From a virus, in the IMG/VR virus record IMGVR_UViG_3300030328_000112, positions 1 through 35,125 of that record: a DNA stretch of 35,125 nucleotides. The stretch is one strand, 5' to 3'. Made by a program: the position numbers and the translations under genes. Positions 2,951 to 6,721 of the stretch are shown here, piece by piece (position 1 is the first letter of the stretch; each line of letters begins with the position of its first letter). The notes beneath the pieces are model-generated. The model saw only the letters and a list, made by a program, of their open reading frames with translations. It did not search any database and was not told where the DNA came from.

Positions 2951-3769
2951 ATGAATACACTAATACAAACCGAACTGGATAAAAATGCACATTTATTTTT
3001 TCCAGTTCAAGAAATGCCTATATATAACCAACAAGGTGAACATATTAAAGGTTATAAACAGCTAAGAAATGGTACAACAGACCAGTTATTAGCAGTACAA
3101 AAAGAATCATATCAAGTATTTACTAATGAAGAATGTTTAGTAAATACAATGACTTATTTGGATAATCATTTTGATACTGAGGGTATGATAATTACTCCTC
3201 ATTCATCACCTGATGGAACTGTATTAAGATATGATTTTACATTACCGAAATATCAACAACCTTTTAAAGATAGTAAAATATTATTAAAAGGATCTATGTT
3301 TAATAGTTTAAATGGTACTAGATCATATATACTATTACTTAGTTATGTATATGAAATATGTACTAATGGTTTAGGTCATAAACTATGGGATATATATATT
3401 ACTAAAAGACATAGCAGTAAGAAAGATTTTGTCTTAGATAGTAGCCAAAATACTACTGATATTAAAAACTTAGGCAAAGTTACTACATATTTAAATGATT
3501 GGTATAATGAGAATGTATCTCAAAATGATATTAAAGATCATATTAATATATTATGTTTTCAGCCAACTGCTAAAGATAAAAGTCATGTTAATCAAGCAAT
3601 GGCTCAATACATAGATAAAGAATATACTAAATATCGTAGTAGATATGGAGATAATTTGTTTACTGCATATCAAGCATACACTCATTGGGCAACACATTAC
3701 CCAAGTGCATCTATCAATACAGTATATGATAGACAAAGAAAAGTTGCTAATATGACAGTATTTAACTAA
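2951..3769 (+). CDS. DUF932-like phage/plasmid protein
   Basis: A 272-residue protein with the general pattern of the DUF932 (phage/plasmid-like) family. It has an N-terminal beta-rich part with a conserved-looking 'Y-Q-V-F-T-N-E-E' region (about residues 54-61), a central 'EICTNGLG' segment (about 134-141), and a C-terminal helical part ending in a 'NLFTAYQAYTHWATHYP' stretch. These proteins are widespread in phages and plasmids and their function is not established. Host takeover or DNA metabolism are common guesses. It has a strong ribosome site and is the largest early gene. It ends just before the structured non-coding region. Confidence 0.7.
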   Translation: MNTLIQTELDKNAHLFFPVQEMPIYNQQGEHIKGYKQLRNGTTDQLLAVQKESYQVFTNEECLVNTMTYLDNHFDTEGMIITPHSSPDGTVLRYDFTLPKYQQPFKDSKILLKGSMFNSLNGTRSYILLLSYVYEICTNGLGHKLWDIYITKRHSSKKDFVLDSSQNTTDIKNLGKVTTYLNDWYNENVSQNDIKDHINILCFQPTAKDKSHVNQAMAQYIDKEYTKYRSRYGDNLFTAYQAYTHWATHYPSASINTVYDRQRKVANMTVFN

Positions 3770-3778
3770 AAAAATTTT

Positions 3779-3796
3779 GGGGTGCATACGCACCCC
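3779..3796 (+). other. GGGGTGC-ATAC-GCACCCC hairpin
   Basis: A perfect 7-bp stem with loop ATAC, 9 bases after the DUF932-like stop codon. The hairpin at 1660-1677 has the same loop and the same inner base pairs, but two paired positions differ in a way that keeps the pairing (GGGTTGC/GCAACCC against GGGGTGC/GCACCCC). Both follow an A run and a short T run. It may mark the 5' border of the structured RNA that follows. Confidence 0.7.
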
Positions 3797-4384
3797 ATAA
3801 AAGTTTGGGCGTTGAATCGTAATACTAGTTTAATTAACTTAATGCGTGGATATAAATGAAAACGAATCCACCACCCATAAAAGTTTCGTGATATTGATTA
3901 GCTGTCAATATCGGCTGACTGAATAACGTCTATACAGAGGCGTAAGGTACACTAAAGATGAAGTATGGGCAAATGCCTGAGGTAATCAGAGGTGGTTGTA
4001 AGTAGGTAAATGATGAATGTATATCTGTAGCTGAAAGCATGAGGGTAATAACACTAATCCCTCGCCTGTAGCGAATTGAGTTCCCTTTAGGGAGAGGGTG
4101 CGTGGTCTAAGTAGCTTGATCTCTACTAATCCAGATATGATACTGCCGTTCTGGCCACCCTCGTAAAAGTTTCGGTGAAACTCCAGTCTCACCGAATAAC
4201 ACTTGTCGGAGTGTATAACTCATACCGACTGCTTGACAGAAGTGTGTCAACGATTAATACAGGCGTTATATCCTAGTTAAAGCGTGTGTTGGTCAGCTTC
4301 TGAAAGATTACTAGAGGAATCGAGTTGGAGCAAATATACCTAAGGCAAGGTAGTAGCCGTAATGACATATGATCCTTGCCTTTC
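3797..4384 (+). ncRNA. Large structured non-coding RNA region (about 590 nt), unidentified
   Basis: No credible ORF lies here on the plus strand, and GC content rises sharply (24/60, 27/60 and 30/60 in 3961-4020, 4081-4140 and 4141-4200, against 12/60 in coding 3301-3360). Perfect or near-perfect stems follow one another: 3846-3851/3866-3871, 3890-3897/3905-3912, 3926-3931/3938-3943, 4041-4045/4059-4063, 4082-4085/4090-4093, a multibranch unit closed by 4094-4100/4156-4162 holding 4110-4114/4123-4127 and 4131-4135/4150-4154, then 4171-4178/4189-4196, 4205-4209/4225-4229, 4233-4238/4245-4250, 4273-4277/4310-4314, and a 9-bp closing stem 4342-4350/4374-4382. A TAAAAGTTT motif recurs three times, each time after an ACCC. 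Size and richness recall the ornate large RNAs of phages (GOLLD, ROOL), but I cannot match it to them. Strand is inferred from the operon direction. There is no tRNA, group I core or group II domain V that I can recognise. Confidence 0.7.
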
Positions 4385-4410
4385 GTATAAAAAAATAATA
4401 CTTCTTGAAT

Positions 4411-4653
4411 ATGGAATATGCTTTGGGTAAAAAATTTTTTTCACAAGTTATTCCTCAATTCGTAGAAGCTAGAAATAAAAAGAATATTACACAAGCTAAT
4501 CTTGATGACATATTAGGAGTAGCTAAAGGTCTAGTATCAAAATGGGAAGTAGGCATAAGGAAACCGAGTGGCTATTTATTTTGTTGCTGGGCAGATGCTT
4601 TAGATTGTGATATTGTATTAGAGTTGAGGAATAATGAGGATAATATATCATAA
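4411..4653 (+). CDS. XRE/Cro-type helix-turn-helix regulator
   Basis: An 80-residue protein consisting almost wholly of an XRE-family DNA-binding domain. Residues about 10-60 have the five-helix pattern, with the recognition segment around 'GVAKGLVSKWEVGIRKPS'. Such proteins bind palindromic operators as dimers. I chose ATG 4411 over the in-frame TTG at 4405. Neither has a clear ribosome site, because the start directly follows the structured RNA and a poly-A stretch. That lack suggests translation depends on upstream RNA context. It could repress its own operon or the early leader at 660-1044. No integrase is present, so it need not be a lysogeny repressor. Confidence 0.75.
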   Translation: MEYALGKKFFSQVIPQFVEARNKKNITQANLDDILGVAKGLVSKWEVGIRKPSGYLFCCWADALDCDIVLELRNNEDNIS

Positions 4654-5093: not shown

Positions 5094-5692
5094 AGACTAT
5101 TGGTGGCAGTGATGCCAACAAACTTGTTCTTGGTACTTATAATGAATGGCGTAAAATTGTAGAAGATAAGATCAATGAAGTAACTACTGATCTATCTAAT
5201 GTATTACCAGTTCAGATGGGTATAGCAACCGAAGAATTAAATCGTAATTGGTTTACAATGGTTACTGGATTACCAGTAACTACTTCAGATGATATATGGA
5301 CTGATCCAGATAAACCATATGCACACGCTAGAGTAGATGGTTTAGTTCATTCAAACGAAAAAGGAGATAGAGATGGCGAAGAAGGTATCTTTGAAGCTAA
5401 ACATACTAATCCTTTTAAACCAGTAGGAGACCAAGTACAAAAATATTATGGTCAACTACAACATTACATGAATGTATTAGATTTTAGTCTAGCATATTTA
5501 TCAATATTTACTGGTAATATGAATCATCATATTTTCAAAGTAGAAAGAGATGATAAATATATTGCTGATTTAGTATTAGCAGAAAAATATTTGTATTTAT
5601 GTATTAAAGATAAAACAATACCTCATTTTGATTGGTATCAGGATTATCAAAAGAAAAGAAAAACACAATATTTAGTAGAGGAAATAGCATGA
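5045..5692 (+). CDS. YqaJ/lambda-exonuclease-type recombination nuclease
   Basis: A 215-residue protein with the PD-(D/E)xK order of the YqaJ/lambda exonuclease superfamily: a 'GGSDA' motif (residues 20-24), a helix with paired acidic residues (63-64), RVDG (96-99) supplying the catalytic Asp98, E117-A-K119 supplying the second acid and the lysine, and a C-terminal Q139-H-Y141. These enzymes degrade one strand of duplex DNA 5' to 3' to expose tails for a partner annealing protein, which is present at 6000-6464. The start overlaps the previous gene, and the end overlaps the next start as ATGA. With no polymerase encoded, this is probably the core of the phage's replication/recombination system. 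Confidence 0.8.
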   Translation: MEDIQKQKEGTEFKVLKTIGGSDANKLVLGTYNEWRKIVEDKINEVTTDLSNVLPVQMGIATEELNRNWFTMVTGLPVTTSDDIWTDPDKPYAHARVDGLVHSNEKGDRDGEEGIFEAKHTNPFKPVGDQVQKYYGQLQHYMNVLDFSLAYLSIFTGNMNHHIFKVERDDKYIADLVLAEKYLYLCIKDKTIPHFDWYQDYQKKRKTQYLVEEIA

Positions 5693-6464: not shown

Positions 6465-6468
6465 CCAG

Positions 6469-6550
6469 TTGGGTCCTGAGGTAGTTCTTCGCAAAACTAT
6501 CAGGGGTAGTGAACCTCGGTGTACCCAATGTGTCTTTGCACTACCCCTGA
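6469..6550 (+). ncRNA. Compact structured RNA with mutually exclusive or pseudoknotted stems
   Basis: Five bases after the annealing-protein stop are several interlocking pairings. TTGGGT/ACCCAA (6469-6474/6523-6528) encloses a hairpin of CCTGA..TAGTT with AACTATCAGG (6475-6486/6495-6504, two G bulged). A perfect 12-bp stem, TCAGGGGTAGTG with CACTACCCCTGA (6500-6511/6539-6550), uses four bases of the first hairpin and spans the 3' half of the outer stem. GAGGT (6478-6482) can also pair with ACCTC (6513-6517). The arrangement is either a pseudoknot or a two-state switch. It is GC-rich against its surroundings. No U tract follows, so it is not a simple terminator. No known riboswitch class is recognised. 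Confidence 0.6.
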
Positions 6551-6559
6551 CTAAATCAA

Positions 6560-6721
6560 ATGAATCATGTAACTAAACTAGAATCTTATAATTTTATTAT
6601 TCAATCTTGTAGTAAGTGTAAAAAGAAATACACAAAAGCTATGATGATAAAATTAATATGCATTCGTTGTTATAATCGAAAGGAAAAAAATGAGAACAAT
6701 CCCAGATATGTTATGGCATGA
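6560..6721 (+). CDS. 53-residue zinc-ribbon protein
   Basis: ATG 6560 opens 53 codons to TGA at 6719-6721. Residues 17-20 (CSKC) and 34-37 (CIRC) form a four-cysteine zinc ribbon separated by 13 residues, with many Lys around it and a polar tail. No ribosome site precedes the ATG; the structured RNA ends 9 bases upstream, which may replace it. It overlaps the next gene by 32 bases. Zinc ribbons of this size bind nucleic acid or protein, and position in the recombination cassette favours the first. Confidence 0.5.
   Translation: MNHVTKLESYNFIIQSCSKCKKKYTKAMMIKLICIRCYNRKEKNENNPRYVMA

Follow-up and report, generated by a model that had tools for sequence, protein, structure and literature searches.

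The segment from about 3779 to 4386 of the window, in the early operon, consists of RNA modules that fold independently of one another on the + strand and are arrayed in the order H0, A, manA-like M2, new pseudoknotted M1, C1, C2, and the constant hairpin T. As judged by comparison with related sequences, the modules come and go, change order, and move from phage to phage and among at least five intergenic sites. Each module is regarded as an independent unit because related phages vary in module strings, order, and site, and we hold the anatomy of the array and the shuffling of its modules with high confidence. Whole-module shuffling appears to be undescribed: no account of structured-RNA modules shuffled between sites or diverged phages, of manA in SAR11-type phages, or of M1 was found in a search of open papers.

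The window, meaning the whole stretch of DNA analyzed, is a virus record of 35,125 bases whose two ends repeat each other almost exactly. The phage is small and podovirus-like, with genes for the terminase, a T7-like head-tail adaptor, an internal virion protein, and the tail on the - strand, and an early operon on the + strand encoding a RecE-like exonuclease, a recombination protein, a single-stranded DNA-binding protein (SSB), and a helix-turn-helix (HTH) protein. Its host is probably a SAR11 bacterium, because the terminase is closest to that of an isolated Pelagibacter phage, EXVC031P Hodr (65% identical). SAR11 (Pelagibacter) is among the most abundant marine bacteria, and since the closest cultured relative by terminase infects it, the array RNAs may rank among the commoner phage RNAs in the sea. 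Hodr itself carries no manA, M1, or other Rfam match, and its early-region leader (L112, 12036-12374) contains large hairpins with CCTCC in a loop and no known module. Named phages searched by DNA with the region and with the modules of a relative gave no match. The features of the site are as follows.

2951-3769, + strand: upstream flanking gene, 272 aa, phrog_1221, function unknown; fixed left border of the site.
3779-3797, no strand assigned: H0, a 7-bp GC hairpin (GGGGTGC-ATAC-GCACCCC) just after the phrog_1221 gene.
3798-3884, + strand: module A, with TAAAAGTTT linkers at 3798-3806 and 3878-3886; its folding by itself is not significant.
3885-4075, + strand: M2, divergent manA-like RNA; Rfam RF01745 match at 3892-4071.
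4081-4163, + strand: M1, new pseudoknotted RNA; covariation in 12 sequences.
4082-4085/4090-4093: M1 helix P0.
4094-4100/4156-4162: M1 helix P1.
4103-4106/4145-4148: M1 pseudoknot P2, in which the strand after P1 pairs with the loop of P4.
4111-4114/4123-4126: M1 helix P3.
4131-4135/4150-4154: M1 helix P4.
4164-4248, + strand: module C1, folding z -2.6.
4249-4338, + strand: module C2, folding z -2.4 on the + strand and +0.7 on the - strand.
4338-4386, + strand: T, hairpin AAGGCAAGG..CCUUGCCUU, the constant 3' end of the array in those relatives read through this site.
4405-4653, + strand: downstream flanking gene, 82 aa, helix-turn-helix regulator-like; fixed right border of the site.

Within these refined limits, no + strand ORF reaches 60 aa and the longest has 33 aa with a GTG start; a hidden ORF was thus rejected, in agreement with the preliminary description, which had seen no credible ORF. 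The GC content is elevated, as had also been claimed, at 42.1% in 3779-4384 compared to 32.1% genome-wide and 27-29% in the flanking genes, but the wording "about double" overstated a difference of about 1.5-fold. Just 0.6% of the 606-nt windows of this genome have a GC content as high and, among those listed, they start within the first ~210 nt of the record. A 621-nt stretch folded better on the + strand than 20 of 20 dinucleotide shuffles (z -3.4), and the reverse strand of the region scored equally by folding energy (z -4.55). Since both strands fold alike, energy alone proves neither an RNA nor its strand, and it was rejected as strand proof. Some single modules are unexceptional by energy as well (manA-like M2, z -0.9; M1, z -1.4; module A, z 0.25), so a comparison across relatives was needed. 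In the resulting alignments, the proof of structured RNA is the compensatory pairs in M1 and in the manA-like module, and these bear out the earlier proposal of a structured RNA on this strand. The helices contain frequent G.U pairs and no observed A.C cells, an indication that the + strand RNA is the functional form.

A stretch of 781 bases was scanned against all Rfam families at a relaxed threshold (up to E 5), and manA (RF01745) was the sole strong match. It extends over 3892-4071 and model positions 1-192, with an E value of 7.2e-7 and a score of 33.6 bits, below the gathering score of 55.2. M2 is closed by UUCGU/GCGAA and contains the core GACUGAAUAAC-hairpin-GUAAGGUA and a helix GAGGGU..AAUCCCUC. 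The manA model detects one copy each in 15 of 24 relatives (E 1e-12 to 9e-9, 33-45 bits) and nothing in the 14 control genomes. An alignment of 14 manA-like copies, with pairs predicted from this group's own alignment and not imposed from Rfam, has 45 pairs with 99.4% of the cells paired, two-sided changes in 8 pairs, and a covariation score above all 500 shuffles. Judged by the model match and this alignment, 3885-4075 is a divergent member of the manA family. The preliminary description suggested a possible new class; most of the array indeed belongs to no known class, with the exception of 3892-4071, where manA is matched over its full length at E 7e-7. M2 resembles the published manA RNA (RF01745, PMC2864571) in aligning over all 192 model positions, in its marine phage setting, in its core (GACUGAAUAA-hairpin-GUAAGGUA), and in a hairpin GGGUA..AAUCCC. 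It differs in sitting in a shuffled module array of a small podovirus-like phage, not by itself, and in scoring under the gathering threshold.

The manA core pattern occurs in 62 viral contigs, in a few of them by chance; in 257 Gb of bacterial genomes there were 26 core-pattern matches, by estimate no more than chance. In the cyanophage-type contigs L051, L058, and L068, manA lies between tRNA genes, and in L041 it lies 42 nt after a tRNA. Six further contigs (L014, L019, L021, L042, L044, and L067) share the manA core GACTGAATAAC-hairpin-GTAAGGTA in elements that are apparently larger or differently built than manA, with weak or nil Rfam manA scores except for L014 (47 bits); a wider manA superfamily may exist. 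Just after the manA-like element of one contig group (L008, L016, L022, L025, L026, L033, L048, L049, and L069) come a ribosome-binding site and a very short conserved ORF, M(L/I)(I/V)IVLDPW*, with its stop codon inside a GGTAGCCC..GGGCTACC hairpin. This ORF is a possible leader peptide. Contig L053 carries a type II hammerhead ribozyme (5296-5358, - strand, 40 bits) on the same strand as its manA-like element and some hundreds of bases away.

Directly downstream of M2, no family match in Rfam 15 overlaps M1 (4081-4163) at E <= 5. M1 folds into four nested helices plus a pseudoknot, and among 12 distinct sequences each helix shows two-sided compensatory changes. In the hand alignment, 295 of 299 cells pair; in the unadjusted alignment, there are 24 pairs with 96.9% of the cells paired, and 12 of the pairs have two-sided changes. 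The covariation of 0.453, compared to 0.211 in shuffles, was reached by 0 of 500 shuffles, and the signal collapses when the partners are slid by 1-3 columns. The helix 4094-4100/4156-4162, picked out earlier from the letters as closing a multibranch unit, is real and is exactly P1; all 12 sequences form it, and 5 of its 7 pairs show two-sided changes. Covariation thereby proves the multibranch unit. The pseudoknot haplotypes include UCCUC/GAGGA, UGCUA/UAGCA, UGUUA/UAACG, and CGGUA/UGCCG. Taken alone, M1 would on this evidence be a new RNA class, and as a compact pseudoknotted RNA with clear covariation it is suited to structural work.

Among the remaining modules, A is identical over 87 of 87 nt in L094, where it directly follows the SSB gene. 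The 90 nt of C2 are identical in L094 and 98.9% identical in L040, after the SSB gene in both. C1, which consists of a TAAAAGTTT linker, a hairpin UUCGGUGA..UCACCGAA, and two more hairpins, was found by blastn in the window only; the first of its hairpins is similar to CGGUGG..CCACCGAAU hairpins of the L095 and L109 arrays. Modules commonly start with UUUC or UUCC after A-rich linkers (..AAAG), and a UUC..GAA stem closes several of them. H0 is present at the same place in L002, L003, and L005, and T closes the array in the relatives that were read through this site. Tested as intrinsic terminators (GC hairpin plus T run), H0 fits on the - strand (stem, then AAATTTTTTT) and not on the + strand, and T fits on neither. 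Elsewhere in the window, a run of short hairpins at 1582-1820 includes one 84% like H0 (H0-like hairpin at 1651-1681), and both the hairpin 1680-1657 and H0 (3797-3778) score as - strand terminators. Both might keep antisense transcripts from reading into the early operon.

Bounded by phrog_1221 and the HTH gene, the arrays of relatives measure 100 to 649 nt, with the same end hairpin T and different interiors. The flanking proteins of L002 are 97% and 95% identical to those of the window, yet its array is mostly different and shares only H0, M1, and T, and the L006 and L007 arrays consist of one hairpin plus T. The genes of L094 are 37-66% identical to those of the window at the amino acid level, while modules A and C2 are 100% identical (87 and 90 nt) and stand after SSB with a different module between them. 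Their transfer would be recent, since 177 identical bases are practically impossible at gene-like divergence (about 30% at the DNA level, where alignable). The order is M2-M1 in the window and L072, and M1-M2 in L010, L028, L082, and L099. Four array segments are 100% identical in pairs of contigs (L099/L110, L012/L063, L038/L059, and L072/L085), and because the contigs of each pair were assembled separately, chimeric assembly is ruled out for these segments.

M1 and manA-like modules occupy five intergenic sites (after phrog_1221, before phrog_1221, after SSB, and before two small-gene groups), co-oriented with the neighboring genes each time. The count was one per record for M1 (14 records) and for manA (33 records); these copy numbers are lower bounds, since incomplete records are numerous and some divergent copies escape the Rfam model, such as those visible in L072 and L108 and missed at E <= 1. 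A ribosome-binding site follows some manA-like and M1 copies at a distance of a few to tens of nucleotides. Two hexamers are enriched in the arrays, AAGTTT (16 seen versus 2.1 expected, inflated by relatedness and in part belonging to closing stems) and AAGGTA (17 versus 2.4, likewise inflated and partly inside stems).

The covariance search called for in the preliminary description was run, and the GOLLD, ROOL, and OLE models gave no match in the region up to E 5. Rfam and ARAGORN searches for group I and II introns, RNase P, HEARO, tRNA, and tmRNA gave none either, and identity with a tRNA, tmRNA, intron, RNase P, GOLLD, or ROOL was rejected for lack of a model match. GOLLD and ROOL are large structured phage RNAs of unknown function, often near tRNA islands (PMC12286853). 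Like them, manA is found in tRNA clusters of some phages; unlike their one conserved fold, the region in the window is several exchangeable modules. Phage tRNA arrays offer a working likeness, as co-transcribed, separately folding RNA genes whose number and order vary among relatives, whereas the window has no tRNA and its modules match no tRNA model. In cyanophage S-CREM1, no more than about 1 kb separates wcaG, manA, and an abiF RNA (PMC9964418). The region in the window differs from this in having no Rfam match to wcaG, and the accessible text of that report describes no shuffling of RNA elements.

As a whole, the region is best explained as an array of accessory RNA modules exchanged horizontally, a reading to which we give an even chance. 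The modules would be accessory RNA genes transcribed together with the early operon and perhaps then separated by host nucleases cleaving in the linkers, as with tRNA arrays. Once freed, they could persist as stable small RNAs that act in trans on host or phage machinery early in infection, and recombination between the short shared linkers would swap whole modules. Such a trans-acting role for RNAs released from the early transcript is given slightly under an even chance. It is favored because the modules behave like RNA genes: they are found once per genome, are indifferent to their neighbors, keep invariant unpaired bases, and move by exchange. M1 and manA were each found in single copy per record, even with five sites in use and a variety of genes downstream; the loss of direct repeats by recombination, or a failure to detect divergent copies, could also give single copies.

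The main rival, quite conceivable and somewhat short of even, is that the modules are cis-acting post-transcriptional elements, folded parts of the mRNA that control the translation, stability, or processing of their neighbors, some of them perhaps riboswitches, the role suggested for manA. Every copy examined is flanked by co-oriented genes, the end of several manA-like copies is a few nucleotides short of a AAAGGAGG ribosome-binding site, and Weinberg et al. in 2010 classed manA as cis-regulatory and a likely riboswitch (PMC2864571). That proposal was based on 5'-UTR position (PMC2864571), which is nearly automatic in a compact operon, where any insert has some gene downstream. Moreover, one module precedes many different genes, one gene pair is parted by different modules in different phages, and manA is also found between tRNA genes; with modules and neighboring genes combined so variably, no module is tied to a gene.

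The other alternatives fare far worse. If the modules were generic mRNA armor that just blocks exonucleases or delimits processing, any stable fold would serve and modules would drift and swap freely. Their interchangeability at one site and the constant hairpin T at the end of each array fit this, but M1 and manA keep long invariant unpaired stretches and pseudoknots beyond the needs of a roadblock, and each of these types was found once per record, so we consider this improbable. A DNA-level element, with hairpins acting as folded single-stranded DNA or recombination sites and the RNA incidental, would account for recombination of the modules, the near-perfect inverted repeat of H0, and folding of both strands. 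It is very improbable, given conserved helices rich in G.U (A.C on the other strand) with no A.C cells seen, copies always sense to the flanking genes, and the established status of manA as an RNA, with 48 significantly covarying pairs (PMC7779021). The single ornate RNA of ~600 nt resembling GOLLD and ROOL, as first proposed, draws on the whole-region folding (z -3.4) and a total length similar to theirs. Relatives carry the same modules in other strings, orders, and sites, with arrays of 100 to 649 nt and modules standing alone elsewhere, and Rfam gives no match to GOLLD or ROOL; this idea is strongly disfavored and was abandoned.

Returning to the trans-acting reading, a bolder version is that the marine phages of this group share an exchanged pool of RNA-gene cassettes (manA, M1, A, C2, and others) that act in trans and are recombined into early-operon sites like accessory genes, with manA as an effector RNA and not a riboswitch. 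This version is offered tentatively, as one that may well prove wrong. That manA is independent of position, was found in single copy, and is exchanged with unrelated modules argues against a tie to one gene, and the shuffling amounts to a natural experiment on an orphan RNA long called a riboswitch candidate.

CCTCC, an anti-Shine-Dalgarno-like motif, occurs in loops of several array hairpins (L012, L095, L109, L002, L006, and L108) and is absent from loops in the window; as a common theme it was dropped, with 7 occurrences versus 2.0 expected being within the shuffle range (maximum 8). A further non-coding segment of the window, 6465-6562, follows the recombination gene and contains interleaved TTGGGT..ACCCAA and CAGGGGTAGTG..CACTACCCCTG pairings, a possible pseudoknot. 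By folding energy, its + strand is unexceptional (z -1.0) and its - strand exceptional (z -3.6).
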